Source: a virus
DNA: 24,034 bases
Virus record (IMG/VR): IMGVR_UViG_3300034064_000487
Location: 1-24,034 of that record
Direction: 5' to 3' (one strand)
The notes under the pieces are model-generated. The model saw only the letters and a program-made list of their open reading frames with translations, did no database searches and was not told where the DNA came from. Below are positions 1 to 23,813 of this stretch, in pieces (within the stretch, counting starts at the first letter, position 1; each line of letters begins with the position of its first letter). Made by a program: the position numbers and the translations under genes.

Positions 1-2
1 AT

Positions 3-101
3 CAGTTAACAGGAATCATTACTGAAAAGACAAATGATTTCTTAAAGAGATTGGCAAGATTTGATAAACATGAACTGAATGAAAGTACTTCATTCTGGTA
101 A
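3..101 (+). CDS. C-terminal end of an unidentified protein (partial)
   Basis: An open frame enters from the left edge and ends at TAA (99-101), giving 32 residues rich in charged and helical residues and ending in SFW. The other two forward frames are closed by stops within the first 25 bases, so this is the only frame that could carry a gene end. Too little is present to name a family. The next gene on the same strand starts 114 bases downstream behind its own late promoter, so the two are probably transcribed separately. Confidence 0.55.
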   Translation, partial: QLTGIITEKTNDFLKRLARFDKHELNESTSFW

Positions 102-201
102 GAAATCACCTTAGGACCGGTACTCGTTACCGTGGTGTAGCCGGCTGCTGGCTTGATGTACTGACTCGCTACCAGGAAATCTAAAGTGAGCTTTATCTCT
201 A

Positions 202-209
202 TATAAATA
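202..209 (+). promoter_or_regulatory. T4-type late promoter TATAAATA, leaderless geometry
   Basis: An exact TATAAATA lies 5 bases before the ATG at 215. In T4 this octamer is read by the phage late sigma factor and covers about -13 to -6, which places +1 at 215, the A of the start codon. No purine-rich ribosome site lies between the octamer and the ATG or just upstream of it. Confidence 0.7.
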
Positions 210-214
210 GTTAG

Positions 215-1105
215 ATGAAAAAACTATTAGCACTATTCTTATTGGCATTTGGAATAGCAAATGTCCAATCACACACATTTAAGTTTATACTATCATCTGG
301 CCCTGGATCTGGATCAGACGTAAGTATTGAAACGTATGCACCTTGTTTAAAGAAACAAAATATCAATGTTCTTAAGGATTACAGGCCCGGAGCAGAAGGC
401 TTAGTAGCACTTAAAGCATTACAAGCCGCACAAGATACAGACAACACAACTCATTTGCTTATGGGTAACTTTGGGCTAAACACTCTAAGTAAGTTTCCCG
501 GAGTAGATTTACTTGAAGATATTAATCCATTAGTATATATGAACTCTACTCCACTAGTCTTTGTAGCTAAAGCGGGTAAGTATAAGTCACTTGATGAATT
601 AGTTAATGAGAATAAAGGAAGAATGCTTAATATAGGTTCTCCGTCAGCTTCAGGTACATTTTTATCAGATACTATTTTTAAAGAAATGAACGTACAGTTT
701 CAAGTAGTGCCGTATAAAACTAGTGTGCAAGGTTTAACTGATGTAGTTAATGGTAACTTAGATATGTTCGTAGATACATTCATAGGAGCACGACCGTTAG
801 TAGAAGCTAATAGAATACAGATTATGACAAGTACATTTGATAAAGCATATGCTACTAAGTTTAACCATTCTAATGTAGGAACTTATAGTAACAAGTTAGC
901 TAAGTCACCCATTGGATTAGGATTAATACTTAGTGTTCAACCATCACTAGATAAAGATACACGTAATATTATTATTAAAGCAATACACACATGCGGCAAA
1001 GATACAGATGTTATTCAAAAACTAGAAGCTAATAGTTCACATCCAGTATTCTTATCAACTAATGATATTGTACGCATGGTTAAACAGTTTTCAGGAAAAC
1101 AATGA
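215..1105 (+). CDS. Bug/TctC-family periplasmic solute-binding protein
   Basis: 296 residues. The first 19 or so (MKKLLALFLLAFGIANVQS) form a clear signal peptide, so the product should reach the periplasm. The mature part follows the Bug/TctC (tripartite tricarboxylate transporter receptor) pattern. GPGSGSD sits at the first ligand loop, DYRPGAEG replaces the usual NRPGAGG, then NSTPLVFVAK, SLDELV, IGSPSASGT, and VPYKTSVQGLTDVVNGNLDMF, which matches the family motif VPYKG..PALTDLLGG. The length fits the family. Host Bug proteins bind small carboxylates or similar ligands for uptake; the ligand here is unknown. No membrane partner (TctA/TctB) is visible nearby, so it may feed a host transporter or act at the surface. 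The stop overlaps the next ATG (ATGA, 1102-1105), so the PP-loop gene is translationally coupled. It starts behind a leaderless-type late promoter, so late expression is likely. Confidence 0.85.
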   Translation: MKKLLALFLLAFGIANVQSHTFKFILSSGPGSGSDVSIETYAPCLKKQNINVLKDYRPGAEGLVALKALQAAQDTDNTTHLLMGNFGLNTLSKFPGVDLLEDINPLVYMNSTPLVFVAKAGKYKSLDELVNENKGRMLNIGSPSASGTFLSDTIFKEMNVQFQVVPYKTSVQGLTDVVNGNLDMFVDTFIGARPLVEANRIQIMTSTFDKAYATKFNHSNVGTYSNKLAKSPIGLGLILSVQPSLDKDTRNIIIKAIHTCGKDTDVIQKLEANSSHPVFLSTNDIVRMVKQFSGKQ

Positions 1106-2301
1106 CACAACATTATCTACCACACTGGACCGTTAACGGAGAAAGAACATCTAGTCAGTTTGACGCATGGCGAGCCGCAGTTGCGACAGGAGTAAAGCCC
1201 AAGTTTTATTTTTATGAAACAGAGTATGATACTGTAGATTGGACAAAAGAACCAAAAGAAACATGGGATGAGCTATGCCATGAAAGATGTATTAACCTTC
1301 GTCAGAAATATAAAAAGATAAGTTTGTTCTATAGTGCAGGACGTGATAGTCATCATATTCTCAAATGCTTTTATCATTTTGATATCCCGTTAGATGAGAT
1401 TGTATTATTAAATCTAAAAACAAATCATATGCGACAAGATGAGCTGATTAGATTGATATATCCGCATGTGCATAACTTCTTACGTAAGTATCCAAACACT
1501 AAGGTCACTACGGTAGATGTTGGACCGGAAGAGTTTGATAACTATTTCACAGATGATTGGTTAGAGAAACCAGCTACTGCATTGGTGCATGGTTATTTTC
1601 AGCCTACTAACTTTAGTTATTATGTTAAGAAAATCATGCATGCCGATGAACCTAATCATGGTATTATTCTAGGTGTAGATAAACCTAGAATCGTACTAGA
1701 GGATGGGAAATACTATTCTGGTATTATTGATAAGACGTTAGAAACGTTTATCACTGATATTCCAAATATTGAATTGTTCTACTATGCACCTGACATGCCT
1801 AAACTACATTTAAAACAAAGTTGGATGACGTTAAATCATATTGAAAAGACATACGGTGGTGCAGAATATAGCACTATTCAAATTGATCCATTACTTAATA
1901 GTAAGTTTGTATCACCTAGCGAAACTCCTTTTACTATTACTGACAACATACTTATTAAAAAGCCAAGTAGTATTACTAATGAGTTTTTAAAAGACTATTG
2001 CGGAAACAGCCATAGTCAATATTACGATGATTTCTGTATTGCATCCGGAAGAGGAGCAGCCTGGAATGTTAATCTAGGCATTCAGAATGGTAAAAGTAAG
2101 TACAAGAATAATGGTAGAGAACTTATATTCCAAAACTTAATAAGAGAAGCAAAAGAATATAAATGGAAATCAGTTCATAACTTTACAAATGCTATGGATT
2201 ATTTGAAAGCAGCCTATGGTTCTGCCTTCAATGATGGTGATCCGTATCAGGGTACTTTAGGATTATATAGTAAGTTATACTATATGAAAGATGTTACTTA
2301 A
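1102..2301 (+). CDS. PP-loop (adenylating) ATPase-like protein
   Basis: 399 residues. The segment ISLFYSAGRDSHHIL (PP-loop at residues 78-83, SAGRDS) follows a hydrophobic strand and precedes a helix, as in PP-loop ATPases (N-type ATP pyrophosphatases such as asparagine synthetase, QueC and TilS). These adenylate a substrate using ATP. The second residue is Ala where most have Gly, an accepted variant in some families. A later GVDKPRIV motif (about residues 193-200) may line the nucleotide or substrate site. No glutaminase domain is present, so this is not a complete asparagine synthetase. The start overlaps the stop of the Bug-type gene by 4 bases, and the 3' end overlaps the converging methyltransferase-like gene by 8 bases. 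The substrate is unknown. Confidence 0.7.
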   Translation: MTQHYLPHWTVNGERTSSQFDAWRAAVATGVKPKFYFYETEYDTVDWTKEPKETWDELCHERCINLRQKYKKISLFYSAGRDSHHILKCFYHFDIPLDEIVLLNLKTNHMRQDELIRLIYPHVHNFLRKYPNTKVTTVDVGPEEFDNYFTDDWLEKPATALVHGYFQPTNFSYYVKKIMHADEPNHGIILGVDKPRIVLEDGKYYSGIIDKTLETFITDIPNIELFYYAPDMPKLHLKQSWMTLNHIEKTYGGAEYSTIQIDPLLNSKFVSPSETPFTITDNILIKKPSSITNEFLKDYCGNSHSQYYDDFCIASGRGAAWNVNLGIQNGKSKYKNNGRELIFQNLIREAKEYKWKSVHNFTNAMDYLKAAYGSAFNDGDPYQGTLGLYSKLYYMKDVT

Positions 2302-2909: not shown

Positions 2910-2917
2910 TATTTATT
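2910..2917 (-). promoter_or_regulatory. late-promoter-like octamer AATAAATA, leaderless geometry
   Basis: Read on the minus strand, AATAAATA differs from TATAAATA only at the first base and ends 4 bases before the ATG at 2905. It overlaps the stop codon of the upstream PP-loop gene. Predicted +1 falls on or one base into the start codon. Confidence 0.45.
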
Positions 2918-3791
2918 AAGCAAATAATGTATTAGAATTTGTTGACGAACCTATCATATTAGATATGATATCTCCCCAAACAATATTTGATTTAGTAATA
3001 CCTAGTTTCTTTATCAGTTCAAGTTTGTATTTTTTTATATTAAATATGTCAGGAGAACATTGTTCCCATCCATAACTTCTTAATCTAGGTTCTATATTGC
3101 CATACATTTTTTGTTTCAAGTAAGGTACAGGTATGTTATTAGAATGATGTGTTATTTGTAAGTTTATAAACTTACAGGTAGATTCAAAGCTATGACCAAT
3201 CATATTTCCTATACCATATATCCCGTTATTTTCCATAAATCTCTCATAACAGTTATATGATAGTCTTTGAGGTGATAATACATTTTTATGTATTTGAACC
3301 CACGGCCAATCACCACCTATTATAGGATAGTTTGAACATTGTTCAATAAGCCAAAAATGACTAGCCACATGTGGTTCATCAATATGATATGGTAATAGAT
3401 ACTCTAAATACCTACCTCCCTCATAAAACTCGATTGGATCAAGGTAGAATAAGTTTTGTTTAATATTATTTTCTCTACAAAACTTCTCAGAATAGTACAA
3501 GTCAGTTGTATTAAGTATTAATCCATTTGTTTGTATTATCATTGTCATAACTTCAAATGGTATATTATTCTTTATACAGGATAATAGAACCAACTCACTA
3601 TCAGTACCACCACTATACAATACTTCTATTTTGGGTGTTTGTCTATTGGACAAATGGTCATAGAAAATATCATACACATTTCTACCCGATTCATATTGAC
3701 ATTCGGTAAGTTCTGTAGTAAAATGATAATCATCTAGGGTATGCTTTTTGTACCCATTTAAACCAGTCGACCATTGTAATATTTCTGACAT
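2916..3791 (-). CDS. PP-loop ATPase-like protein (SGGTDS)
   Basis: 291 residues. IEVLYSGGTDSELVLLS carries a canonical PP-loop, SGGTDS at residues 60-65, after a beta strand and before a helix. The rest shows a YSEKFCRENNIKQNLFYLDP segment, typical of the second alpha/beta unit of the HUP fold, and IIGGDWPW (about 157-164), which may correspond to the conserved loop near the active site. It is clearly different in sequence from the PP-loop proteins at 1102 and 9872. The substrate is unknown. It leads a two-gene minus-strand unit with the methyltransferase-like gene, which suggests that an adenylated intermediate and a methyl transfer could belong to one process. The start is ATG 3791 behind ACTAAATA at 5 bases, with no ribosome site. 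Confidence 0.7.
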   Translation of the reverse strand: MSEILQWSTGLNGYKKHTLDDYHFTTELTECQYESGRNVYDIFYDHLSNRQTPKIEVLYSGGTDSELVLLSCIKNNIPFEVMTMIIQTNGLILNTTDLYYSEKFCRENNIKQNLFYLDPIEFYEGGRYLEYLLPYHIDEPHVASHFWLIEQCSNYPIIGGDWPWVQIHKNVLSPQRLSYNCYERFMENNGIYGIGNMIGHSFESTCKFINLQITHHSNNIPVPYLKQKMYGNIEPRLRSYGWEQCSPDIFNIKKYKLELIKKLGITKSNIVWGDIISNMIGSSTNSNTLFA

Positions 3792-3867: not shown

Positions 3868-4317
3868 ATGCTACACTTCATCACAGACCTAACACACAAA
3901 CTATTAACCTTCATTAAAGACGACCCGGTAAGACCAGAAATACCTACCGATTTTAGAGTAACTAATGGTAGAATGGTTGCGGCATTAAGTGATAATGACG
4001 ATGACCCAGATGCAATGGTATGTGTTAGTTTCCATGATTTTGTTCCAGCCGGAGTAGACGATTTATCTAATGTATCCGAAGTTCCGACTACAGCAGTATT
4101 CTATACTATTTGGAGTTATAAAGCCGGTAAAGGCCGTGATTTATTAATACAAGCGGTAAAAGGTATTCAGGAGCAATATCCAAGTGTAAATAGATTTGTG
4201 ACATTAAGTCCTAAAACAGAAATGGCAAGAAGATTTCATTTAAAAAATGGTGCTATTATATTCCGTGAGAATATAGAAACCATTAACTACGAATATACTA
4301 AAACATCAGGTGAATAA
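3868..4317 (+). CDS. GNAT acetyltransferase-like protein
   Basis: 149 residues. The second half reads like a GNAT fold. A strand TTAVFYTIWSY is followed by KAGKGRDLLIQAVKGI, where AGKGR could be the acetyl-CoA pyrophosphate loop at the start of a helix. Next comes the strand NRFVTLSP, then MARRFHLKNGA, resembling the family's A..FY.KNGF motif. The N-terminal third is less typical. Catalysis and target are unknown, and the protein could be a degenerate GNAT used as a binding protein. It is followed one base after its stop by a small acidic gene whose ribosome site (AGGTGA) lies inside its last codons, so the two are one operon. Confidence 0.5.
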   Translation: MLHFITDLTHKLLTFIKDDPVRPEIPTDFRVTNGRMVAALSDNDDDPDAMVCVSFHDFVPAGVDDLSNVSEVPTTAVFYTIWSYKAGKGRDLLIQAVKGIQEQYPSVNRFVTLSPKTEMARRFHLKNGAIIFRENIETINYEYTKTSGE

Positions 4318-9595: not shown

Positions 9596-9872
9596 ATTTT
9601 ATAAAATAAAATTCATTAAAGAGTTTAATGAAAAATGTGACTTTGAACGTAATCAACTAATCAATGAAATGATTGATAATGCAACTGATCCAACAATAGT
9701 TAAACGTAGAATTAGGATGCTGGAACAACTAGCAGAGTATCAGGTTCAGATTTATAAAAAAATAGAAGCATTTGAAACTGATGATCCACATGATTATCTT
9801 ATCCCATTACATAAAGAGTGGAGAAATAAATTTCCACCTGAAACTGTACTAGTAGTGCATAGGGGAACTTAA
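9579..9872 (+). CDS. small basic/helical protein of unknown function
   Basis: 97 residues, mostly helical and charged, with no membrane segment and no motif I recognise. The start lies 17 bases inside the glycosyltransferase gene, and the stop overlaps the ATG of the asparagine-synthase-like gene by one base. It is therefore fixed between two enzymes in one transcript and could be a small partner of either. Confidence 0.65.
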   Translation: MKPNIKFYKIKFIKEFNEKCDFERNQLINEMIDNATDPTIVKRRIRMLEQLAEYQVQIYKKIEAFETDDPHDYLIPLHKEWRNKFPPETVLVVHRGT

Positions 9873-11029
9873 TGAAGCCTTTATTACTAGCAACAAATCC
9901 TGAATACCTTTATAAAATTTTAAACTGGAAAGGTATCTCATATGAGTTTGCAGGTAACCTGTTTAAAATTAACGGGTTTACTGACTATAATAAACTCATT
10001 GATATCAATAGTATATTCTCTAGCTACCCGTTTGGTGAAGTGGTAGACAGAACTAATACAGTACATTCACCTCTCAAGTATAAAGTATTACGTGATTGGA
10101 AAATACCACCATCAAGTTTATCATTTGAAGATATAATGTATAATCAAGTCATGCGTCACGTATGTTCTAATAGAAAAATAAACTTATGTTGGAGTGGTGG
10201 TATTGATTCTACTACAATGCTTGTTGGATTTTTAAAACACGCACCCGACTTAAGTCAACTAAGAGTATTGTATTCTCCGTTTTCTGTATATGAGAATAGA
10301 GACTTTTTAGAACTATTACATAGAGACTATCCACAAGTAGAGACACTTGATATCAGTGGTACAATCTATATGGATAATCATTTTGATGGGTTGATGTTAA
10401 ACGGTCACGGTGGCGATGAATTTGTTAGTAGTTTAGATGATAGTTTTTATGAGAAGGTAGGCGGTGATGGATTGTATAAGCCCTGGAAAGATTATTTCCG
10501 TGAGCAGAATCAGGACTCACTGATTGATTTTGCTGAGAACTATTTTGCTAACGCAGGTAAACCTATTGAAACTTTGTTAGATGCACGATGGTGGTTTTAT
10601 GCATCAACCAAATCGCAGGTGTTTCAAATAGCAGATAATGTTTTTCTTGCTAATCAAAAAGATACTAAGATAGAAGATACTATTGGGTTCTATGACAACT
10701 ATGAATTTGAAGCGTTTATGTATTTCAATCCACAACTGATTATTGAAAATAGACACGATTACAGAACACATAAAAACTTTATGAAGAAATACATCTTTGA
10801 GTTTGATAAGAATGAAGATTACTTTGTAAACAAAAGCAAATCCAACAGTATACAGTTTGCATGGTATACACTTAAAAAAACGTGTATGAGAGATATGAGA
10901 TGGATTGCACGATTATCTGACAGTACTATAATCAAAACTCCTAATCTACCGTTCTTTAGTAAAAAAGAGTTTGATAGTCTTTATGGAGATAGTTTAGATT
11001 ACCTGTTTAATGAGGTCTATAATGTATAG
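9872..11029 (+). CDS. asparagine-synthase-like PP-loop ATPase
   Basis: 385 residues. NLCWSGGIDSTTMLVGF carries the PP-loop SGGIDS (108-113), and MLNGHGGDEFVSSL (175-188) matches the second asparagine-synthetase motif (SGEGADELFGG). Together they identify the synthetase domain of class B asparagine synthetases and related beta-lactam or amide-forming enzymes. The N-terminal Cys-nucleophile glutaminase domain is absent and the first 100 residues match nothing I recognise, so the amine donor may be ammonia or a separate substrate. These enzymes adenylate a carboxylate and then form an amide. Its position after the glycosyltransferase suggests a shared pathway, perhaps modification of a sugar, peptide or surface molecule. 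SD AGGGGA lies 6-7 bases before the ATG. Confidence 0.8.
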   Translation: MKPLLLATNPEYLYKILNWKGISYEFAGNLFKINGFTDYNKLIDINSIFSSYPFGEVVDRTNTVHSPLKYKVLRDWKIPPSSLSFEDIMYNQVMRHVCSNRKINLCWSGGIDSTTMLVGFLKHAPDLSQLRVLYSPFSVYENRDFLELLHRDYPQVETLDISGTIYMDNHFDGLMLNGHGGDEFVSSLDDSFYEKVGGDGLYKPWKDYFREQNQDSLIDFAENYFANAGKPIETLLDARWWFYASTKSQVFQIADNVFLANQKDTKIEDTIGFYDNYEFEAFMYFNPQLIIENRHDYRTHKNFMKKYIFEFDKNEDYFVNKSKSNSIQFAWYTLKKTCMRDMRWIARLSDSTIIKTPNLPFFSKKEFDSLYGDSLDYLFNEVYNV

Positions 11030-12297: not shown

Positions 12298-12326
12298 TTG
12301 ACAATAAATCGATTTGGGTATATAAT
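12298..12326 (+). promoter_or_regulatory. sigma-70 promoter, repeated family
   Basis: TTGACA (12298-12303), 17-bp spacer, TATAAT (12321-12326). Identity with the promoter at 12492 continues past the -10 box through AGAATCTTAGACAG, that is, into the transcribed leader. Confidence 0.8.
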
Positions 12327-12358
12327 AGAATCTTAGACAGTTGAGAAAAGGATTAAAA

Positions 12359-12490
12359 ATGTACAAAGCAAATGGTTATTTATTTAGAAGTGTCGAAGCC
12401 CTAGGTGAATACTTAAAGATTCATTCTGGAAAAGATATTATTGTCACCTACGTCACTGAGTATTTTCTCGGTGACCCGATGGAACAATAA
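12359..12490 (+). CDS. 43-residue small protein
   Basis: ATG 12359 follows AAAAGGA by 6 bases and opens 43 codons ending at TAA 12488-12490. It contains the segments YLFRSVEALGEYLKIHSG and KDIIVTYVTEYFLGDPMEQ, a short alpha/beta unit with no known family. The dedicated consensus promoter and good ribosome site make it a credible gene despite its size. Confidence 0.6.
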   Translation: MYKANGYLFRSVEALGEYLKIHSGKDIIVTYVTEYFLGDPMEQ

Positions 12491-12491
12491 C

Positions 12492-12520
12492 TTGACAATA
12501 AATGGATTTGGTGTTATAAT
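12492..12520 (+). promoter_or_regulatory. sigma-70 promoter, repeated family
   Basis: TTGACA (12492-12497), 17-bp spacer, TATAAT (12515-12520), followed by the same AGAATCTTAGACAG leader start as the promoter at 12298. Confidence 0.8.
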
Positions 12521-12552
12521 AGAATCTTAGACAGTAAAGAAAAGGAAACAAA

Positions 12553-12966
12553 ATGGCTTACATGAATCAAGAACGCAAAGCGAAGATTACTAAAATGCTT
12601 AAGCCAATCTTGGCTAAGTACAAGGTTAAAGGCTCACTGAGTGTCCGCAATCATAGTACTATTGTATTAACGCTCAAATCCGGTTCTATTGACTTTATTG
12701 GCAATAGCAACAAGGTTTGCGGCAATGACTTTTATCAGGTACAACGTGGCTTCAAACCTACTACAACTGGTTACGATCAGGTGAACCCTTACTGGTTCCA
12801 GGATCACTATGACGGTGATGCTAAGGCTTTCTTAACCGAAGCATTCAAGGCATTGAAGTCGGCCGATTGGTATGACGAATCCAACGCAATGATTGACTAC
12901 TTCAATATTGCCTACTATGTTGATATTAACATTGGCAAATGGGATGCCCCATACATTGTCCAATAA
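12553..12966 (+). CDS. conserved phage protein, possibly LPD29-like
   Basis: 137 residues. AYMNQERKAKITKMLKPIL, then LSVRNHSTIVLTLKSGSIDFIG, VNPYWFQDHYDGDAKAFL and a C-terminal YFNIAYYVDINIGKWDAPYIV. This order of segments matches proteins I recall in phages and mobile elements, sometimes assigned to the LPD29 (large polyvalent protein associated) domain. No enzymatic residues are recognised. It lies behind its own strong promoter with AAAGGAAA as ribosome site, so abundant early expression is likely. Confidence 0.65.
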   Translation: MAYMNQERKAKITKMLKPILAKYKVKGSLSVRNHSTIVLTLKSGSIDFIGNSNKVCGNDFYQVQRGFKPTTTGYDQVNPYWFQDHYDGDAKAFLTEAFKALKSADWYDESNAMIDYFNIAYYVDINIGKWDAPYIVQ

Positions 12967-12989
12967 TCGAATAATGGGTAACACAATGG

Positions 12990-13018
12990 TTGACAATAAT
13001 GTCCGATTGTGTTATCAT
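12990..13018 (+). promoter_or_regulatory. sigma-70 promoter, repeated family (TATCAT -10)
   Basis: TTGACA (12990-12995), 17-bp spacer, TATCAT (13013-13018). It differs from the others in its -10 box and in its longer leader of about 53 bases with a 5' hairpin. Confidence 0.7.
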
Positions 13019-13025
13019 TATAACA

Positions 13026-13052
13026 GTGCTGAGTGATATCAGTACATTTTTT
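13026..13052 (+). promoter_or_regulatory. 5' leader hairpin plus U-run, possible attenuator
   Basis: GTGCTGA (13026-13032) pairs with TCAGTAC (13039-13045) with one G-U pair and a 6-base loop, and six T follow (13047-13052). The stem begins at the predicted first bases of the transcript (+1 near 13025). It could terminate early, protect the 5' end, or be conditional. Confidence 0.5.
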
Positions 13053-13077
13053 AACTTAGCTTTTTTAAAGGAAATAT

Positions 13078-13458
13078 ATGGCTAATTCTAATCAAACTTT
13101 CAAAGTCGCTGGTATTACTATTCACAATGGTAACGCTAAAGTTCGTTTCACTGATGACATGGTCCGTCGTATCAAGCAGTTCACTAAAGGTGGTGCTTCA
13201 CGTGTAGATTTCGTTGAGCTACCTTCAGAAATGACAAAGGTAGAAGCATTGAAATATCTTGCTACACTTCCCGAGTTCGCTAGCCCATCAGATCAGGCAA
13301 CTATTGCTGATACACTTGCTGATAAATCTAAAGAAGCAAGTAAAGGTGAAGTCAAAGTAAAAGCTTCTAAAACAAAGCCTAGTATCGATGCTATCAAAGC
13401 ACGTGCTAAAAAATCAGAAGTGTCCGCAGAACAAGTATTATCTGCTATCGCTGAATAA
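13078..13458 (+). CDS. conserved phage protein with Lys/Ala-rich tail
   Basis: 126 residues. The N-terminal half (FKVAGITIHNGNAKVRFTDD, MVRRIKQFTKGGASRVDFVELP) is compact and resembles proteins I associate with T4-like aquatic phages. The middle is helical (EALKYLATLPEF, DQATIADTLADKSKE) and the tail is Lys/Ala/Ser-rich (KGEVKVKASKTKPS), ending in a short helix. The tail would suit nucleic-acid binding. AAAGGAAA precedes the ATG. Transcription passes a leader hairpin first. Confidence 0.65.
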   Translation: MANSNQTFKVAGITIHNGNAKVRFTDDMVRRIKQFTKGGASRVDFVELPSEMTKVEALKYLATLPEFASPSDQATIADTLADKSKEASKGEVKVKASKTKPSIDAIKARAKKSEVSAEQVLSAIAE

Positions 13459-13463
13459 AAAAC

Positions 13464-13477
13464 GGGGCTTCGGCCCT
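13464..13477 (+). other. UUCG-tetraloop hairpin between genes
   Basis: GGGGC-TTCG-GCCCT forms a very stable 5-bp RNA hairpin with a UUCG loop, 7 bases before ATG 13485. It has no T-run, so it is more likely an mRNA stability or processing element than a terminator. Confidence 0.5.
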
Positions 13478-13484
13478 TCAAACT

Positions 13485-13697
13485 ATGAATATGAATCTAT
13501 CTACATTTCGCCGATCATTTAATCCTCGTAGAGAATTTAATCCTGCAGATAAAAAAGATTTGCAAGAGTTCAAGTTCTTTAAGAAGAATGGCAAATGGAA
13601 AGCTGGGTGTCCATTCTTTCTTGAGGATCCGTTTGTTGAGATTCCGGCAATGTGTGAAAGTAAATTCACAACTTATATGCTAGAGAAGATGAAGTAA
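13485..13697 (+). CDS. small basic conserved phage protein
   Basis: 70 residues: STFRRSFNPRREFNPADKKD, then LQEFKFFKKNGKWKAGCPFF, LEDPFVEIPAMCESKFTTYM. Rich in aromatic and basic residues, with two Cys. It resembles small proteins conserved in related phages, and the function is unknown. No ribosome site is visible before ATG 13485 or the in-frame ATG 13491, and a stable hairpin sits just upstream, so translation may be coupled to the preceding gene, whose stop lies 26 bases away. Confidence 0.6.
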   Translation: MNMNLSTFRRSFNPRREFNPADKKDLQEFKFFKKNGKWKAGCPFFLEDPFVEIPAMCESKFTTYMLEKMK

Positions 13698-13724
13698 AAA
13701 AAGCCCCTTAAGTGGGGCTTTTTT
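13697..13724. terminator. bidirectional Rho-independent terminator
   Basis: AAAAAAGCCCC (13697-13707) and GGGGCTTTTTT (13714-13724) form an 11-bp perfect stem with a 6-base loop. It lies between convergent genes and has T-runs on both strands, closing the early plus-strand run and the minus-strand fibre operon. Confidence 0.9.
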
Positions 13725-13728
13725 GTGG

Positions 13729-15105
13729 CTAAGGAATCGATGTTACGGAGTTAGTAAGTGTACTAGTTGCACCAGTCAATGATGATGTTGCCGCAGTAAA
13801 TGATGGAGTGCCGGCAGTCATTGTAGTAGTAGTTGCAGACCACGCAGACAAATCAGCTTGTGGCATTGTTGGTATACTATAAGTGAAACTTATTCCACTA
13901 GCAGTGTATGTTCCAGTTGGTGTGCCATCACCCGGTACTTTAAGCATTAAGATTTGATTATTACTACCACTAGTAGGTCTTATGTAGCCGCCTGCAACTA
14001 TATTATCTGAACTATCTATTGTAATAGAATACAAATTTACCGAATGAGATGTTGCACTTAATTGTCGTTGCCATAATAAATTACCGCTGGTATTATATTT
14101 TAGAATATAAGTACTACCTGTTGTATATATATTTCCTGAACTATCTACTGTTATATCGGATAATATTGGGAAAGCAGGATCACCTATTTGTTTCTTCCAT
14201 TGCAATGCACCGGATGTATCGTATTTGGCTACAATACCATATTGAGTTCCACCAATGCCGGTTAATGAAATACCACAAACAAATATGTTATCTGAACTAT
14301 CAATCGTTATACCATTATAACCACTTTGTCCGGTTGCTTTACTTAGACCAACTTGCCATTGTAGTGTACCACTGGAGTTATACTTGATAAGCATTCCTTG
14401 ACCTGAACTAGTGCTAGTAGGGGTTGAACCAGCTATATATATATTTCCTGATGAGTCAAGTGCAATATCTTGGCAGGTAGCTTGGTCACTAGACGTTGAT
14501 GGAGTTAAACTTCTTTGCCATTGCAATGTACCGGAGCTATCGTATTTTAATAGTAGTACACGAAAGTCTTGAGGGAATGATGATGTTGGCAAAAAAGATC
14601 CACCGACATAGAAATCTCCAGTACTTTGTTCAACGACTACACTGAGTCCTTGTTGATTTAGTCCAGCACTGCCTAAAGTTTTCTGCCATTGTAAATTTCC
14701 ATTTGTATCATATTTTACTATTTGAACATCACTACCATCAGTGGTACCATCTGAACTTGTACCTCCACTTATATACAAATTGTTAGAATTATCTAAATCT
14801 ATTCCAAAAAAGTTAGTACTATTAGGAGATGATGCACCCAATGTTCTTTGCCATTGTAAAGTTCCATTTACATTATATTTTGCCACAATACCCGTAGAGT
14901 TACTGCCACTATCAGTATATCCAACCATATATAAATTATTTGAACTGTCGTACACTAAATTATTTTGCCGACTAATTGTTGTACTTGGATTAGTAAAGTT
15001 GTTTCCAAATATATCAATGTATCCGCCGCTACCGACTGGACTACCTTGACCTATATCAATGCCTCCACCTACTGTTATTCCGCTTCCAAATATTATTCCT
15101 GACAT
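13729..15105 (-). CDS. seven-blade beta-propeller fibre/receptor-binding protein
   Basis: 458 residues. A Gly-rich N-terminus (about 1-40, GSGITVGGGIDIGQG) is followed by seven repeats of about 40-50 residues with the pattern ..IDSSGNIY..G.....G.ILIKYNSSGTLQWQ..L, the hallmark of SBBP/PQQ-type beta-propellers. Blades start near LVYDSSNNLY, IDLDNSNNLY, VVVEQSTGDFY, IALDSSGNIY, ITIDSSDNIF, ITVDSSGNIY and ITIDSSDNIV. Seven blades is a complete ring. A Ser/Thr-rich C-terminal region of about 60 residues follows. It is the last gene of the fibre operon and has its own late promoter and leader (AAGGATAAG before the ATG), which suggests a distal, highly expressed receptor-binding or sugar-binding tip. 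There is no signal peptide. Virion location is inferred from neighbours. Confidence 0.75.
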   Translation of the reverse strand: MSGIIFGSGITVGGGIDIGQGSPVGSGGYIDIFGNNFTNPSTTISRQNNLVYDSSNNLYMVGYTDSGSNSTGIVAKYNVNGTLQWQRTLGASSPNSTNFFGIDLDNSNNLYISGGTSSDGTTDGSDVQIVKYDTNGNLQWQKTLGSAGLNQQGLSVVVEQSTGDFYVGGSFLPTSSFPQDFRVLLLKYDSSGTLQWQRSLTPSTSSDQATCQDIALDSSGNIYIAGSTPTSTSSGQGMLIKYNSSGTLQWQVGLSKATGQSGYNGITIDSSDNIFVCGISLTGIGGTQYGIVAKYDTSGALQWKKQIGDPAFPILSDITVDSSGNIYTTGSTYILKYNTSGNLLWQRQLSATSHSVNLYSITIDSSDNIVAGGYIRPTSGSNNQILMLKVPGDGTPTGTYTASGISFTYSIPTMPQADLSAWSATTTTMTAGTPSFTAATSSLTGATSTLTNSVTSIP

Positions 15106-15122
15106 TTTCTTATCCTTTTGTT

Positions 15123-15130
15123 TATTTATA
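15123..15130 (-). promoter_or_regulatory. T4-type late promoter TATAAATA with a leader
   Basis: An exact octamer on the minus strand. +1 near 15117 gives a leader of about 12 bases with AAGGA, just enough for a ribosome site before ATG 15105. It lies in the gap after the 1027-residue fibre gene. Confidence 0.7.
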
Positions 15131-15137
15131 AGCTACT

Positions 15138-18100
15138 TTAAGCATTAGGTGCCTTGATAACCATAAATCTTATAGTGATTGTCTCATCACTAGTTGTAAA
15201 ACCACTGATGTTTACAATGTTTAAAAAGAATCCAGGGTTAAACCCACCGATAACAGCAGGGGTTGCGATACAATTATATGTTCCTTGGTTAGGACTAACT
15301 ATTTGTGCTAGTACAATATCACTAGTAGGATCCACTGAACTATTTGTGACAGAGAATGTATCAATTTCGCTTACCGCCATAGCGGCACTAGTTGTTATAA
15401 TAGTTCCTGCTAGTGTATTGATAGTTACACCGGTACCTCTATTTGTAGTTTGAGTAACAGTTGATCCTGATGCATAACCAATCTTACCAGTTGATGTTAG
15501 TGTACCAGTGACATTAGCACCAGTACTTGTAACTACTAATTCAACGTTGCTACCGGCTGCTTGAATTGAAACATTGCCGTTACTAGTAATAGTGATGTTT
15601 GAATTACCATTCTGCAATAGACCGCTATTGATAGTAGTGATGTTACCAGTTGTAATATTTGCTGTATTAGCAGTTACAACACCAGTAGTTGATATATTTC
15701 CACCAGCGATGTTACCTGTACTTGGTTCAACAGTAGCATAGTTTACATATTTTAGATTACCATCATATGTCATTATACTCATAGCACCGTTAGAGGTGAT
15801 ATCTTGTGTGACTCCTACTGGTACTTGTGTACCATTAGCATAGTTAACAGCAAAAGTATTACCTGGTAGTGTTAAGTTACCAGTACTATCAAACGTCCAT
15901 AAGTTTGAATTAGCATTTACAGTAACATTTGAGTTACCGTTAGTGAATTGTAGTGCGCTTACACTAGAGAAGCCACTAAGCGTAGGAGCAGGACTTGCAC
16001 CACTACTTACAATAGAACCAGATACAATCAGATTGCCGCCGCTAGGTAATGTTAAGTTACCTTCGTTATCAAAATCCCATACATATGAAGTGTTGGCTAA
16101 GTTACCGGTAGTCACAGTCATTGAACCCGGAGTAGAACTATTCAATCCTACTTGAACAACATTACCCGGACCAGTTGGGTTCTCATACCAAACTAGTGAC
16201 ATTCCACCATTGGCTTCTGATGATCCCAATAGTAATGGTGCGTCTAGTTGTGTAAAACCAGTACCTGAACCTAATCCAGTTGGACCAATCACTAAGTTAC
16301 TTGGTGTAGTTAAGTTACCATCAGTTCCAAATGTAAAGATATTGCCATTAGCATCAAGTGTGATGTTACCATCTACTGATGCAATATTGATAATACTATT
16401 ACCGTTGCTTAGTGGTAGACCACCGCCACCACCTAGTGGCACTTGTGTACCATTAGCATAGTTAACAGCAAATGTATTACCCGGTAATCTTAAATTACCG
16501 GTATTGTCAAAGAGCCAGTAGTTTACTGTAGTTGCGTTATTACCTACAGCAATCAATACATTGCCTTCACCACCGCCTGGGTAATTCATTGCTATTGTTG
16601 TAACACTATCGGGTGCGCTTGTATTTGCCGTCCAACCCAGTTGTACAACGGAGTTAGCACCTTCTCCTAGAATTTGTAGACCCTCATTATATTGAAATAT
16701 ACTTGAACCACTACCGGGCCCTGGGCCAATCACTAAGTTACTAGGTGTAGTTAAGTTACCAGTAGTGTCAAATGTCCAACTGTATTCAGTATTGCCGCCC
16801 GAGTTAGCCCAAATCTGAAGATTACCATCAGACGCAACTTCACCATCATCAGGATAAATCTTGATTGCGCTACCGCTAGAGCCGGTGAATATAGTATTAA
16901 GAGCCGTAATCTCAAGATTAGCAGGACCTGCTAAACTTGCATCTTCTGACAAGATTTTTGGATTTGCACCACCTGTAATAGTTAAGATAGGATCAGTCGT
17001 ATTAGGACCAGTATCACGCGGGAATACTAGAATGCCAGTAGTATCAAATGTCCAAGTGTTACCGCCGCTGTGAACGAATAAGTTAGGAGCGGCACCGTTA
17101 TAGTAACCTACTTCAAAACTTGAATCTTCACCACCTAAGAATATATTAGCATCTGGTTCGTCAATATTTGCACCTGGTGCTCGTAAGTGAATATGACTTG
17201 GACCAGTTGGGTCAATAACTAATGATTGTGAGGTATAATTTTGATCCGGTGTAAAGACCATTGTGCTGACATTTGCATTATTTGGATCCAGCGAACTATT
17301 AGCAATGCTCGTAATTATACTGTTGCCATCTGCTAATATTAAATTACCGTCACTAGTAAATGACCAATTGTACTGATTACCATTAGCATCATCAGTACCG
17401 ATTACGACATTGCCTGTATCACCTAACTCAAGTTTTACATATTTGGCATCATCCCCAAAGTATTGGTCATAAAATTGATTGTTGCCTGTGTCAAGGTGAA
17501 TGTGTGTGGGAGCATCACCGCCACGCACTCTCAGGTATTGTAATGCACTATTAGCAATACTATTATTTCCAGGGGCCAAAAACAATCCGGTACTGCCAAA
17601 TTCATCGCCTGTGCCAATAACAATATTATCGTCAAATGTGACGTTACCTGTGTTGCCACTGCCTCCACCAATTGATACTTGAGTACCATTAGCATAGTTA
17701 ACAGCAAAAGTATTACCTGGTAATGTTAGATTACCATCTGTGTCAAATGTCCACATAGCATTACTACTATTACCATCATTACTGTTGATGACAACATTAC
17801 CTGTATTTGCTAACTTAACATAGAAGTTATCACTGCCTAAGAACAACTCGGTTGCATACAAGTTTCCACTTGTCATATGTATATGGTCACCGTCAAACGC
17901 TGTTGGATATATTAATAACTGTTGATTGGCAGTAGTTCCACCTATTGGTTTTAAAGCAATAGCACTACCACTAAGTGATTGGTCTGGAATGTTGGTTTCA
18001 TAAACAATACTGCCTAATGGCAAGGTCAAGTTACCAGTATCATCAAATGTCCAAGTTTGGTCAGTGTTAGCATTGTCAGTTACAATAGCAAAGTTAGCCG

Positions 18101-18221
18101 CAGAAGTTATACTGAAGAAATCATTTAGACTTGGTGCCGCACTTGGATCACCGGATGAGTTGATATTTCCGCCCGAAGTGAATCCACCGTCCGACGTGAT
18201 TGGTTGTAAATTTGCTGCCAT
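15138..18221 (-). CDS. large repetitive tail-fibre protein
   Basis: 1027 residues, poor in Cys and charged residues and rich in Asn, Gly, Ser and Thr, as in trimeric phage fibres. The N-terminus MAANLQPITSDGGFTS is shared with the 157-residue neighbour and probably attaches it to the tail. About nine copies of a W[TS]F[DTG]..GNL.LP module are spaced along residues 55-860, three of them followed by GNTFAVNYANGTQV. The last 100 residues (SEIDTFSVTNSSVDP to ITIRFMVIKAPNA) resemble the C-terminal heads of other aquatic T4-like fibres. A weak late-type octamer (TATAAAAA, 18239-18246) and an AAGGAAAA ribosome site precede the ATG. Confidence 0.8.
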   Translation of the reverse strand: MAANLQPITSDGGFTSGGNINSSGDPSAAPSLNDFFSITSAANFAIVTDNANTDQTWTFDDTGNLTLPLGSIVYETNIPDQSLSGSAIALKPIGGTTANQQLLIYPTAFDGDHIHMTSGNLYATELFLGSDNFYVKLANTGNVVINSNDGNSSNAMWTFDTDGNLTLPGNTFAVNYANGTQVSIGGGSGNTGNVTFDDNIVIGTGDEFGSTGLFLAPGNNSIANSALQYLRVRGGDAPTHIHLDTGNNQFYDQYFGDDAKYVKLELGDTGNVVIGTDDANGNQYNWSFTSDGNLILADGNSIITSIANSSLDPNNANVSTMVFTPDQNYTSQSLVIDPTGPSHIHLRAPGANIDEPDANIFLGGEDSSFEVGYYNGAAPNLFVHSGGNTWTFDTTGILVFPRDTGPNTTDPILTITGGANPKILSEDASLAGPANLEITALNTIFTGSSGSAIKIYPDDGEVASDGNLQIWANSGGNTEYSWTFDTTGNLTTPSNLVIGPGPGSGSSIFQYNEGLQILGEGANSVVQLGWTANTSAPDSVTTIAMNYPGGGEGNVLIAVGNNATTVNYWLFDNTGNLRLPGNTFAVNYANGTQVPLGGGGGLPLSNGNSIINIASVDGNITLDANGNIFTFGTDGNLTTPSNLVIGPTGLGSGTGFTQLDAPLLLGSSEANGGMSLVWYENPTGPGNVVQVGLNSSTPGSMTVTTGNLANTSYVWDFDNEGNLTLPSGGNLIVSGSIVSSGASPAPTLSGFSSVSALQFTNGNSNVTVNANSNLWTFDSTGNLTLPGNTFAVNYANGTQVPVGVTQDITSNGAMSIMTYDGNLKYVNYATVEPSTGNIAGGNISTTGVVTANTANITTGNITTINSGLLQNGNSNITITSNGNVSIQAAGSNVELVVTSTGANVTGTLTSTGKIGYASGSTVTQTTNRGTGVTINTLAGTIITTSAAMAVSEIDTFSVTNSSVDPTSDIVLAQIVSPNQGTYNCIATPAVIGGFNPGFFLNIVNISGFTTSDETITIRFMVIKAPNA
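15830..15881 (-). repeat. fibre DNA repeat, copy A (NTFAVNYANGTQV)
   Basis: A 52-bp segment nearly identical to copies at 16448, 17684 and 20183. It encodes part of the fibre module L.LPGNTFAVNYANGTQV. Conservation at DNA level, beyond protein level, suggests recent copying between modules. Confidence 0.7.
16448..16499 (-). repeat. fibre DNA repeat, copy B
   Basis: Second copy of the 52-bp repeat in the 1027-residue fibre gene; its first 25 bases are identical to copy A. Confidence 0.7.
17684..17735 (-). repeat. fibre DNA repeat, copy C
   Basis: Third copy in the 1027-residue fibre gene, closest to its N-terminus; it differs from copy A at only a few positions. Confidence 0.7.
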
Positions 18222-18247
18222 TTTATTTTTCCTTATTCTTTTTATAC

Positions 18248-18721
18248 TTAAATTATAGTGTAACCATAATTAACTACTTGACTCGTTCCGCTATTGTTAG
18301 TGATACCGAATGTAAACACATTAGCCGTGTTGCCTAAGTAAGTATTAACATTGCTGATTGCACCCGCAGTTCCTACAAACTGATTAGGTATTGACGTAAG
18401 CACTAACGCATTCCCAACTGCATAATACCAACCATATTGATCACCTAGTACTGGTACATTTGTATTTGTAACAACCGCAGTAGCAGTGTAAGTTATGATA
18501 CCGTTTGGAATATTACCGTTAACCCAGATTGAGTAAGTGCCACTAGCGGGCACAGAAATGCTCACTGTATTATTACCGGACGCCAGTGTCCAACTACCTT
18601 CAACTTTAGTAGCAACATTAGATAAGCCACCACCGTTACCTAAAAAATTTGCAGCCGAAACATTACCGGTTGTCGTGGTAAATCCAGCATCAGATGTAAT
18701 CGGTAATAAATTTACTGACAT
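18248..18721 (-). CDS. short fibre-associated virion protein
   Basis: 157 residues. MSVNLLPITSDAGFTTTTGN is homologous to the N-terminus of the large fibre downstream (MAANLQPITSDGGFTS). The segment AANFLGNGGGLSNV is a common fibre-repeat motif. The rest (EGSWTLASGNNTVSISVP to the end) looks like a single beta-rich head domain, so this may be a short fibre with the same attachment end but only one head, or a truncated paralogue. AGGAA precedes the ATG 13 bases after the stop of the upstream fibre gene. Confidence 0.65.
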   Translation of the reverse strand: MSVNLLPITSDAGFTTTTGNVSAANFLGNGGGLSNVATKVEGSWTLASGNNTVSISVPASGTYSIWVNGNIPNGIITYTATAVVTNTNVPVLGDQYGWYYAVGNALVLTSIPNQFVGTAGAISNVNTYLGNTANVFTFGITNNSGTSQVVNYGYTII

Positions 18722-18734
18722 TTATGATTCCTAA

Positions 18735-21700
18735 TTAATCTACTGCGATACCGAATTCGGTAGCATCATATGTAACCCAACTGTTGGCTGCGCCTGAGTT
18801 AATTGTTACTGTAATATCCATAAAGTTAGAGCCGTTCAGGTCAACTACTACTGTACTGTTACTGATTGTTGGTGGTTGAACTCTGTTGCTTACTGTGTAG
18901 TAAGTATTACCATCTGTAGATGTAGCAGACACATCAAAAAATTCAAATCCTAAGCCACTGTGCTGAATTTGCATTGTAACTTTCATTGAAGTTGTATCAA
19001 CACTGGTAGCAGTGTAAACAACTGTTGGTGTAGTACCAACAATTACAGCACTGTATCTAAGCCCTGGGATAATCTTACGTTGACTTTGAATTACTGTCTG
19101 CTCGTTGATAGTGTTACCTACATCTAACTCAATAGTTGGCAATCTTAGATTACCGTCATCCTGAAATTGCCATTGCCAAGCGTTAGTACCTGTATCAGTA
19201 TAGATGTTTACTGCACTAGATGCTTCAAGGCTGATAGCACTAGTGCTACCAATATCAATGTTGTTGCCGTCATTACCAATAGTTCCGCTATTAGGTAATT
19301 CAAATATGCCTGCACCATTGAATGTCCAAGTGCCACCGTCGCCATTATCACTACTAGATATGATTAGTTGTATTTGTCCTGCTAATGCGTTTGCACCGGC
19401 ATCGCCTGATCTTAGAATGATATCACCACCAGGATCACCATTACCAGTACTATCACCGGCATTTATAGTTACGTCACCGCCTGAATTACCTAGGTCAATA
19501 TTACCATTGTTGCCACCGGCGTTACCTGCATTAAGTGTAAGAGAACCGCCGCTTCGTGCAGAGATATTAGCACCTACGGCAGCACCGCCAGCACCGGCTT
19601 CAATGCGAACAAATCCACCATCACCACCAAAATCAAGATTGGCTGCGCCACCCTGACCGGCTTCAATAACAATGTCACCTCCTGATGCATCACTATCTTC
19701 GGCACTATCACCAGCAAAGATATTAATGTCACCGCCTTCACTGGTAGATCCTGCATCACGATCACGAGCCTGTAACAATATGTCATCGGCTGAATATAGA
19801 TTGATATCTGCACCGTTACCAGTAGCACGGTTGTCAAATTCTATTGTATTAGATCCAATAATAATTCCTGGGATGCCAATATTGCCGGTAGTACTGTCAA
19901 ATGTAAAACCAGAATTAGCACCAAAATTACCATTGTCATTAAACTGTATTTGTGTATTAGAACCACCAGGTGTACCATTGCCGCCGCCGGCTACTGCCGC
20001 AAATACTCCGTTACCGTACAACACATTACTGTTGCTACCATCTAAGTTGAGTGTTGCTATGTTACCAACTGTTGGAACTACTGGAATAGCAACATATGTA
20101 CCATTACCAGTTAATAGATTACTTACATTACCATCTAAGTTGATTGTTGCTATGTTACCAACAGTTGGAATAGTTACTGCTGTACCATTAGCATAGTTAA
20201 CAGCAAATGTATTACCTGGTAGTGTTAAGTTGCCATCTGCATTAAAGTCCCATCTAGCCGCAACATTTGCATTTGCACCCATTGATAGAGCAAAATTACC
20301 TGATGCAACAACAAACACATTAGAGGTGTCAAACATCAATGTACCGTCAGGGTAAGTTAATGCCCCGTTAGATTGGAAGTTCCATGTTTTGCTATTACCA
20401 GTAATCTTTACGTTAGAGTTACCAGATGCATCAATCTCAATATCTTGAGCTACGTTACTAGATATAGTTGTTCCACTAAATGTGATGTTACCTGTAAAGT
20501 TAGAACCATATATCGCACCGTTTGAATATTTGATAACACCTTGATCGGATAAAATAGTATTACCTGATGTATCAAAAGTCCATGATGCGCCCGAGTTACC
20601 ATTACTTGTTTGAAGTACAATGCTGTGATTAGGTTCGGCTGCGATTCCTATAGTAGTGTTACCTGCTACTTCACCCATGTAACTACCGCCCGGAAATACT
20701 ATATTACCTGCTGGTGCAAAGTCACCGTCTGTTTGAAATACTGATATAAATGTATTAGCACCGTTACTAGTTTGAACATACGCACCGTCATCTTCTACAA
20801 AGAACTTCATAGTTCCATTACTATTACCTAAGATTGCAGAGCTATTCGCAGCCGCTAATATTGCACCATTGTTTGGTACTTGTATTGAACCATTTGCGTT
20901 AAATGACCAACTGGCAGTACCAGTAGCATTTATTACAACATTGCCATTACTAACAGGGACAGATACGTTACTATTTCCATTACTAATTTGACTTGAATTA
21001 CCACCTGCTATTGCCGCAAATACACCATTACCATACAATACATTACTATTGCTACCAGTTAAATTGGTAGCAGAGATATTCCCCAAATTATTAGCAGTGA
21101 TATTACCGGTAGCTGACAAGTTACCAGTTACTGTTGTGTCATGCAGATCAGCATTGCCATCTACACTTAGAAAGCCACCGGTGCTAAGTCCAGTGCCCGA
21201 TGATATGTTACCGTTTGCTACGACTTCTCCGCCGGTTACTAAATTGCCACCACTAATATTACCTGTAGTTGTGATTGTATTACTTCCAAATGCAGCCAAG
21301 AATGTTGCTACATCACTATTACCATATGTGCCGTTGCCACCAGTTACCGGAGCAAATACACCGTTACCGTATAACACATTACTATTGCTACCAGTTAAGC
21401 TAACTGTAGAAATATTACCTAAATTATTAGCTGTAATATTTCCAACACTAATATTACCTGTCGTAGTTATTGTATTACTACCAAATGCTGATAATAATGT
21501 AACTACATTGCTATCGCCGTAACTGCTATTTCCACTAGAAACAGTTGTCCAACTTAAGTTACCGTCACCGTCAGTAGTCAATACTTGTCCATCAGTACCA
21601 CCTTCAATGATTACATTATTAACACTACCTAAGTTAGCAGTTGTACCAACATTTAATGTTGTGATAGATGCTAATCCAGTCGTGCTAATATTACCTAAGT

Positions 21701-22686: not shown

Positions 22687-23013
22687 TCAGGATGGACTAA
22701 AACTTGACCCGCATCCGCATGTTGTTTGTGCATTTGGATTACTGATTTTAAACTGTGAGCCGTTTAAATCTTCAACGTAATCTATTTTTGCATTGGTTAA
22801 ATATTGTGCTGAAATACTATCAACTAGGACACTTAGAGAACCTGCTGGTATCTCAAAATCATCTTCGTTTAGTTCTTCATCTATACTGAAACCATATTGC
22901 ATTCCACTACATCCCCCACCTTGAACAAATACACGTATTTTAGCTTTAGGATTACCTTCCTCTGCTAGTATATCTGCTATTTTTATTGTTGCATTTTCTG
23001 TTATTTCTATCAT
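22687..23013 (-). CDS. erpA: A-type Fe-S carrier protein (ErpA/IscA family)
   Basis: 108 residues. The three Fe-S-binding Cys of A-type carriers are all present: Cys35 in [11 protein letters not shown] and Cys99/Cys101 in [57 protein letters not shown] and the CGCGSSF end follow bacterial ErpA closely in order and length, more so than IscA. Such proteins receive a cluster from the scaffold and deliver it to target enzymes. No scaffold or desulfurase is nearby, so it would work with host Isc/Suf. I chose ATG 23013, which overlaps the SOD stop (ATGA), over an in-frame TTG at 23028. It is co-transcribed with SOD. Confidence 0.88.
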
Positions 23014-23564
23014 AAACTCTTTCCCCAACGGGTGTTAACTACATTCCAATTGATTATTTTCCACTGTTCTTTTAGATACTTTTTCTTGTCTGCACCGTAC
23101 TCTAGTATCCAAGCGTGTTCCCACCAGTCTATGAGCAACAAAATGTCGTCACGTAGTTCGTGATTCTTTATCGTTTTAATTTTGCCGTCATATGCTAAGT
23201 AGATCCACCCCGACCCTTGAATCTTCATTGCTTCAGTTTCAAATTGCGCCTTCATATCATCATAACTGGTGAAATGTTTGTTAATGAAGCCTAACATAGG
23301 TCCGTTGGGTTTGTTGTTATTTCTAACTTCACGGAACTGTGGAAATAGTGTATTATGCAGAAAAGCCCCTGCATAGTTGAAATCTTTGTCACCCTCACCC
23401 TTGTTATATCGTTCAGCGTAACCGTGAGCTAACTTCCCGTAATGTAGGTCTAATGTGTCTTGGCTTAATACAGGTTTAACCTCACTCGCGGTGAAGTTTA
23501 GTGGGATAATTTCTATGTCTTGAGGCTTAGATTTGTCCTCAAGTAACTGTATAATGTCACGCAT
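23010..23564 (-). CDS. Fe/Mn-type superoxide dismutase
   Basis: 184 residues. By-eye alignment with bacterial SODs keeps all four metal ligands: His41 (LDLHYGK), His70 ([13 protein letters not shown]), Asp146 and His150 (IDWWEHAW). GSGW (117-120), QWKIINW and Tyr49 (the conserved active-site Tyr) also match. Differences are notable: the usual HH after the first ligand is missing (KLAHGYAE), and the hydrogen-bonding Gln seems replaced by His135, as in some actinobacterial and archaeal enzymes. An N-terminal extension of about 20 residues precedes the family start. No signal peptide, so cytoplasmic. It would convert superoxide to peroxide and oxygen. GATAAATA ends 4 bases before the ATG and no ribosome site is visible. 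Confidence 0.85.
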
Positions 23565-23597: not shown

Positions 23598-23813
23598 TTA
23601 TCGTCTACGCACAATGCGTCCTTTAGTTAAATCATATGGGCTGAACTCAATCTCTACTATATCCCCTAGTAGGATTTTAATGTCATGCTGACGCATTTTA
23701 CCGGATATATAACCGGTAACAGTGGGGCCACTGTTTAATATAACTCTAAAGACGGCATTGGGTAATACGTCTATTACCTTACCATCCATTCGTAAACCTT
23801 CTTCTTTAGCCAT
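23598..23813 (-). CDS. infA: translation initiation factor IF-1
   Basis: 71 residues, the full length of bacterial IF-1. MAKEEGLRMDGKVIDVLPNA, then VTGYISGKMRQHDIKILLGD and PYDLTKGRIVRR match the S1-like OB fold of IF-1 throughout, including the GKMR loop and the PYDL.KGRI end that contacts the ribosomal A site. Host IF-1 binds the 30S subunit and helps IF-2 and IF-3 choose the start codon. The start is fixed by the MAKE homology. An AAAGGAG lies unusually far upstream (about 16 bases). It stands upstream of SOD and ErpA on the same strand, with a late-type promoter between it and SOD. Confidence 0.92.
   Translation of the reverse strand: MAKEEGLRMDGKVIDVLPNAVFRVILNSGPTVTGYISGKMRQHDIKILLGDIVEIEFSPYDLTKGRIVRRR

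Follow-up and report, generated by a model that had tools for sequence, protein, structure and literature searches.

A TctC/Bug-type receptor gene coupled to a PP-loop-like gene, with a structured RNA beside it, in probable T4-like jumbo phages

Introduction

What would a phage of lake bacteria gain from a periplasmic receptor of the TctC/Bug type? TctC receptors operate with a TctA permease, and a gene for such a receptor, here called Bug2, was found at positions 215–1105 (plus strand) of a 24,034-base viral record in IMG/VR (this whole stretch is referred to as the window), where it shares an ATGA overlap with the gene for a PP-loop ATP-pyrophosphatase-like enzyme at 1102–2301 of the same strand. 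Two purposes had been offered in an earlier note on this DNA: import of a carboxylate for the downstream enzyme, or blocking of a surface site against superinfection. Among the receptors to which Bug2 can be compared, PstS belongs to another family, is of the ABC transporter type and serves phosphate, and we know of no enzyme coupled to it in cyanophages. Cyanophage PstS is a phage-borne uptake receptor, as is proposed here for Bug2; it is a periplasmic receptor for a host uptake system and is produced during infection (PMC6359870).

Gene layout and origin of the window

Both open reading frames start with ATG and encode 296 and 399 aa, respectively; the ORF calls, the Pfam match, the fold and the sequence motif confirm the earlier observation of a Bug gene with a signal-peptide-like start overlapping a PP-loop-like gene by ATGA. 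Upstream of the pair lie the 3′ end of a c3 gene (1–101, plus strand; truncated by the window start, with the stop codon at 99–101), whose coordinates were transferred from locus L003, where c3 ends 114 nt upstream of Bug2, and then, besides the promoter discussed below, a conserved structured RNA at 101–192 that was absent from the earlier note. Downstream, on the minus strand, follow c10 (2294–2905), a conserved neighbour without a family match, and a second PP-loop-like protein (2916–3791) with the motif SGGTDS, which is a neighbour in most Bug2 loci and has weak PDB matches to N-type ATP pyrophosphatases.

The window very probably derives from a T4-like jumbo phage, since gp23, the T4 capsid protein, is present on its large relatives, and since the gp23 of contig G006 and the superoxide dismutase of the window are both nearest to PA5oct and Vibrio 2.275.O. 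The large relatives measure about 300–520 kb, most of them with gp23. Gp23 was detected on nine of 14 large contigs that bear the module, the RNA or both, all nine being at least 320 kb long, and the gp23-bearing contigs with the same cassette span 320–524 kb. The gene arrangement of G006 (352 kb) is the same as that of the window, and its gp23 is 66% identical to that of PA5oct and Vibrio 2.275.O, the two phages that also gave the best matches to the window superoxide dismutase (43% and 34%, respectively).

Several other genes of the window deserve mention. A third PP-loop-like protein (9872–11029; SGGIDS) has weak asparagine-synthase and QueC-like matches, and a small protein encoded at 3868–4317 resembles the C-terminal domain of malonyl-CoA decarboxylase (E 1.4e-6) and is kept in most relatives. 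The regions 22687–23564 and 23598–23813 hold genes for Fe-S assembly (IscA/ErpA-like) and the Fe/Mn superoxide dismutase and an ORF that, by eye, resembles translation initiation factor IF-1. Two very long minus-strand proteins (15138–22001) with repeated WTFDTTGNLTLPGNTFAVNYANGTQV-like units are probably virion fibres.

The Bug2 receptor

Bug2 scored 39.7 bits against Pfam TctC (PF03401; cut-off 27, E 5.5e-10), a model matched by all 36 viral TctC members, and a profile built from Bug2 relatives matched Bug27, the terephthalate-binding protein TBP, BugE and BugD in the PDB. Its AlphaFold2 model (pLDDT 84) aligned with BugE (2dvz) at Z 28.4 over 273 residues, and the best 11 entries of the fold search were all TctC/Bug, the next receptor fold following at Z 18.0; as modelled, Bug2 is a full two-lobed (type II) receptor nearest to the TctC structures. 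Pfam, the PDB profile and the fold agree on the Bug/TctC identity assigned earlier, and the phylogeny did not place the protein outside this family.

With the characterized Bug/TctC proteins BugE (2dvz), BugD (2f5x), Bug27 (2qpq), TBP (8hka) and MatC (6hke), Bug2 shares the Pfam family, the two-lobed fold, the glycine and aspartate of the carboxylate loop, a signal peptide (here a signal-peptide-like sequence) and the habit of an orphan gene. It differs from them in being virus-encoded, less than 25% identical and paired with a PP-loop gene, and in its loop, which reads GPGSGSD and not PFxAGGxxD. The Bug family signature is P-F-x-A-G-G-x-x-D, the beta1-alpha1 loop of these proteins holds the proximal carboxylate of the ligand, and hydroxyl substitutions in the signature loop are on record for some Bugs (PMC5812351). 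The corresponding loop of Bug2, G29–D35 (299–319, plus strand), was located by alignment and by the family motif; G31 and D35 are present, P and F are absent and the second G is replaced by S. The first glycine and the aspartate of the loop are conserved in all nine aligned Bug2 proteins.

The N-terminus MKKLLALFLLAFGIANVQS (215–271) was judged by eye to be signal-peptide-like. By inspection, lysine followed by a hydrophobic stretch was retained in all nine Bug2 proteins, even in L011, where the sequence itself has been replaced, and a loss in close relatives, which would have told against the earlier reading, was not seen.

Eight Bug2 relatives at 86–100% identity were obtained from IMG/VR, and further ones, down to 47%, from a second search. 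The dN/dS values between the window gene and its relatives are mostly 0.06–0.12, reaching 0.20–0.22 for the nearest relative (L003, with few changes) and for the most distant one (L026); Bug2 is under purifying selection. The PP-loop gene gave 0.04–0.09 in most pairs for which the ratio was computable, and the low values indicate that both genes are maintained. At the same time, Bug2 forms a long branch (2.2) in the TctC tree, and together with the altered signature loop this tells against the uptake role proposed below, in that Bug2 may have a different job.

The PP-loop partner and the promoter

The downstream protein carries SAGRDS at residues 78–83 (1333–1350), invariant across nine homologues, where the PP-loop pattern is SGGxDS following a beta strand, and a further homologue (G005/L280; 28% identity, E 2e-26) has SGGTDS in its place. 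No match was obtained in Pfam, PHROG or PDB sequence searches. Its model is of low confidence (pLDDT 52) and matches almost exclusively PP-loop/HUP ATP pyrophosphatases (best Z 7.9), the confidently modelled N-terminal part matching LarE, TtuA, NAD synthetase and asparagine synthetase; motif and model together point towards the PP-loop assignment of the earlier note. With the N-type PP-loop enzymes (asparagine synthetase, NAD synthetase, LarE, nitrile synthetase) the protein is linked by a similar motif and by fold matches of its N-terminal, Rossmann-like part, whereas it lacks a family-model match and its C-terminal half is modelled at low confidence. Many N-type PP-loop enzymes adenylate carboxylates, an activity that, by analogy, would fit a carboxylate receptor as partner.

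Bug2 and the PP-loop gene are adjacent in nearly all Bug2 loci and are translationally coupled by the ATGA overlap. The pairing is not obligatory, since L014 (11047–12285) has the RNA but, through a natural deletion, neither Bug2 nor the first 44 codons of the PP-loop gene, of which the remainder is intact in place.

The promoter box TATAAATA (202–209, plus strand) ends 5 nt upstream of the Bug2 ATG. Counted simply as an 8-mer, the box shows no enrichment in the window (5 occurrences, with 4.65 expected); nevertheless, its ATAAATA core is invariant at the same place in eight phages, so that it is likely to be a real −10 box of a T4-type late promoter. A transcript would then start at or next to the ATG, giving leaderless and late expression. 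Of the leaderless late promoter claimed earlier, the box and its conserved position stand; late timing and leaderless transcription are what we infer from them.

Viral TctC lineages and their conserved neighbours

Bug2 is one of two kinds of TctC protein in these phages. Bug1, the first viral TctC (318 aa), was found at 74 loci, with a sulfotransferase-like gene (ST1) near it in 64 and c3 in 56; in all, about 75 viral contigs have TctC beside sulfotransferase-like and oxygenase-like genes. The module in relatives, which continue beyond the upstream edge of the window, runs Bug1, sulfotransferase-like gene, c3, sometimes an APS-kinase-like (APSK) or glutamine amidotransferase (GAT) gene, Bug2 and the PP-loop gene. 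The c3 family (about 227 aa) shows a 2-oxoglutarate/Fe oxygenase-like His-x-Asp…His…Arg pattern with conserved H126, D128, H182 and R192 and a weak PDB match to the oxygenase AtsK (E 0.06); family searches assigned no confident family to c3 or ST1.

When the viral proteins were placed in a tree together with nine TctC proteins from bacteria, all Bug1 sequences formed one clade and all Bug2 sequences another, each with full support and far from the bacterial sequences. The best cellular matches to the viral TctC proteins were found on plasmids, at 22–30% identity; at such a distance the betaproteobacterial host hinted at in the earlier note is at most a candidate. When genomes were scanned with a pattern of the viral TctC loop in search of cellular relatives, 11 sites fitted the pattern and no relative came up. 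Judged by the tree clades and by the low identity of the cellular matches, the viral TctC proteins are most simply seen as old viral lineages. Recent acquisition from a host is ruled out by the same tree and the same low identity.

The earlier note had called Bug2 an unusual phage gene. This description suits the isolate phage collection, in which Bug2 found no match and Bug1 matched one remote fecal contig (23%, unverified). It does not suit metagenomes, whose T4-like jumbo phages often carry TctC, a gene that has already been annotated in uncultured phages. UniProt already holds viral Bug proteins, namely the PBP2_Bug_TTT proteins of uncultured Caudovirales phages (A0A6J5T247 and others), which are viral TctC proteins whose fold matches Bug2 at 15–20% identity; no published analysis of them was found in the literature. 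What is new here is the combination of receptor and PP-loop enzyme and the permease-bearing relatives. Together, these contigs outline a lineage of uncultured T4-like jumbo phages in which a conserved enzyme cassette accompanies one, two or three TctC receptors and, in some members, a permease.

Permease genes and the purpose of the receptor

No TctA gene was found within the window, which is a fragment, and most Bug-bearing contigs likewise have none. A full-length TctA (E 1e-50 to 1e-95) was detected in four of 55 related or RNA-bearing contigs, all viral: L272 (7986–9446), L075 (5485–6942), L278 (1489–2928) and L280 (1474–2799). Each of the four adjoins genes of the Bug module. The order is APSK-TctA-secreted protein-TctC-ST1 in L075 and secreted protein-TctA-small membrane protein-c3-ST1 in L278, while L272 has APSK-TctA plus a run of sulfotransferase-like gene, c3 (33% identity), PaaA twice and GAT. 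In L280, a PP-loop homologue, TctA and a secreted protein gene follow one another, the PP-loop stop overlapping the TctA start. The secreted proteins beside the TctA genes score below the Pfam TctC cut-off, and that of L280 gave no alignment with the window Bug. Note that the TctA of L272 is to be read with caution, since it sits at the contig end beside bacterial-looking genes; these genes (12309–18912; CHASE2-adenylate/guanylate cyclase, FecR-like and CsgG-like) end a 383-kb T4-like contig and are either phage cargo or a chimeric contig end. A TctA domain match has been recorded in a SUP05 phage contig (PMC4164917); the four genes described here differ in being full-length and in having viral TctC, sulfotransferase-like or PP-loop genes as neighbours.

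Of all the observations, these neighbourhoods speak most strongly for uptake as the probable purpose of the receptor. Late in infection, the T4-like jumbo phage would make two proteins from a single message, leaderless and translationally coupled: a periplasmic receptor of the tripartite tricarboxylate transporter (TTT) family and a PP-loop enzyme that acts in the cytosol. Bug2, once exported, would bind a small carboxylate in the periplasm, handing it on to a TctA permease, presumably the host's own in the present case and the phage's own in some relatives, and the PP-loop enzyme may then activate or consume the imported compound with ATP. Late carboxylate uptake feeding an ATP-dependent enzyme is the reading towards which we lean, with slightly more confidence than doubt. 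The earlier proposal of carboxylate import for the downstream enzyme is strengthened on its transport side by TctA genes that belong to these gene groups and in one contig immediately follow a PP-loop homologue, while the carboxylate ligand and the enzyme substrate are inferred. If this reading holds, the module speaks for carboxylate uptake in bacteria that is steered by viruses, and it supplies testable gene sets.

The uptake need not concern an environmental nutrient. The cassette, which comprises TctC proteins, sulfotransferase-like, oxygenase-like, APS-kinase-like, amidotransferase, radical SAM and PP-loop genes, might make or modify a small molecule or glycan, with Bug2 recovering a periplasmic intermediate. 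The conservation of this enzyme content across diverse phages speaks for such a role, as does a diverged branch with the order TctC-PaaA-TctC-PaaA-GAT; however, the enzyme assignments of ST1 and c3 are weak, and we regard this explanation as unlikely.

Somewhat less likely again is signalling, in which liganded Bug2 would dock on a host sensor kinase or a host TTT permease and shift host gene expression, the PP-loop gene being an independent passenger. TctC proteins can signal, as citrate-bound BctC does via BctE in Bordetella (PMC5812351), and Bug2 is an orphan in the window, most contigs likewise being without TctA. A host sensor would, however, have to recognise a receptor only 22–30% identical to cellular ones, and in four contigs these very genes have TctA as a neighbour.

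Envelope defence, in which Bug2 would fill the periplasm or mask a surface site against a second phage without any need of a ligand, is very improbable. Bug2 is secreted, judging by its N-terminus, and is probably made late, as such a role would ask, but the ligand-loop glycine and aspartate are conserved, the modelled fold is that of a full two-lobed receptor, and Bug2 is accompanied by permease and enzyme genes. The surface blocking suggested earlier found no support in these features, and carboxylate uptake is favoured over it because TctA occurs in four contigs, one of them with PP-loop homologue, TctA and secreted protein in a row. Finally, a non-functional recent host gene or bacterial DNA mis-binned as virus, to which the abundance of TctC in bacteria might lead one, is refuted for practical purposes by the dN/dS of about 0.06, by the fully supported Bug1 and Bug2 clades far from bacterial sequences, and by the same cassette on gp23-bearing contigs of 320–524 kb.

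A structured RNA upstream of Bug2

The 92 nt that follow c3 and precede the promoter (101–192, plus strand) are about 95% conserved among the phages, including L026, whose Bug2 is 47% identical. The RNA is laid out as hairpin 1 (P1 enclosing CCUUAGGACC), hairpin 2 with the loop GGCUGCU, hairpin 3 with the loop UCGCUA, and the tail AAAGUGAGC. Single-sequence folding was no better than that of shuffled sequences (z 0.62), so the evidence for structure is covariation and not energy. When stem halves were exchanged among 47 unique copies, pairing was lost (0 of 2000 permutations did as well), and the same was found for all stems in 88 further copies (0 of 2000) that had been collected with a pattern specifying the three loops and, of the stems, only the innermost pairs in hairpin 2. 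The tail AAGTGAGC, though outside this pattern, is present in 87 of the 88. A structure-fitted alignment of 99 copies, which leans towards the structure as the swap tests do not, has two-sided changes in 13 of 15 pairs; 92.4% of its cells are paired, and 366 cells have changed on both sides, where sliding the partners gave 50 at most. The covariance model gives the window RNA 100.9 bits, the window being part of the training set. From these data, 101–192 almost certainly belongs to a real structured RNA family. A pairing of GUAGC with GCUAC was considered and dropped, as GUAGC varies while GCUAC stays constant.

A 17-base word of the RNA was found in 70 IMG/VR stretches, in many of which the neighbouring genes are different ones, and the consensus pattern in at least 119, as against none of 84,980 cellular genomes; Rfam gave no match at gathering score, the best being at chance level (E 0.42 and 1.2). 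Within this scope the RNA is a virus-only, new family without an Rfam counterpart. In 62 of the 88 copies, the start of the RNA follows within 60 nt on the stop codon of a gene on the same strand, whatever the gene may be; of random places, 11% do so.

The loops offer a tentative hint of function. Loop CCTTAGGACC is exactly complementary to positions 1920–1931 of E. coli 23S rRNA, CGGCTGCTG to 517–527 of 16S rRNA and TTCGCTAC to 1929–1937 of 23S rRNA, so that two of the three targets, both in 23S, are neighbours. None of the three loops occurs in sense orientation in E. coli rRNA, and the tail has no rRNA match. Simulated rRNA of the same dinucleotide make-up holds the complements at frequencies of 0.008, 0.014 and 0.096, respectively, and the joint chance is about 1e-5, for a comparison that was chosen after looking. 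The RNA might be a virus-only regulatory antisense RNA whose three loops pair with host rRNA at universally conserved sites, through which jumbo phages would act on host ribosomes; we consider this possible but doubtful, and it is weakened by copies with the third loop GUCGUGC, which lacks 23S complementarity.

The RNA family may open an unknown phage–host mechanism, and a copy in PA5oct, a cultured Pseudomonas jumbo phage, makes it testable. Blastn searches of isolate phages with three variants of the RNA yielded no convincing copy, and the covariance model detected the diverged PA5oct copy (E 2e-4). This copy (L276; NC_071039, 115467–115561) lies directly after gp295 and keeps loops 1 and 3, loop 2 being changed. 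Among 30 large contigs, 27 carry the RNA, almost always as a single copy; in the 524-kb contig G011, two strong copies (L253 and L254) are present.
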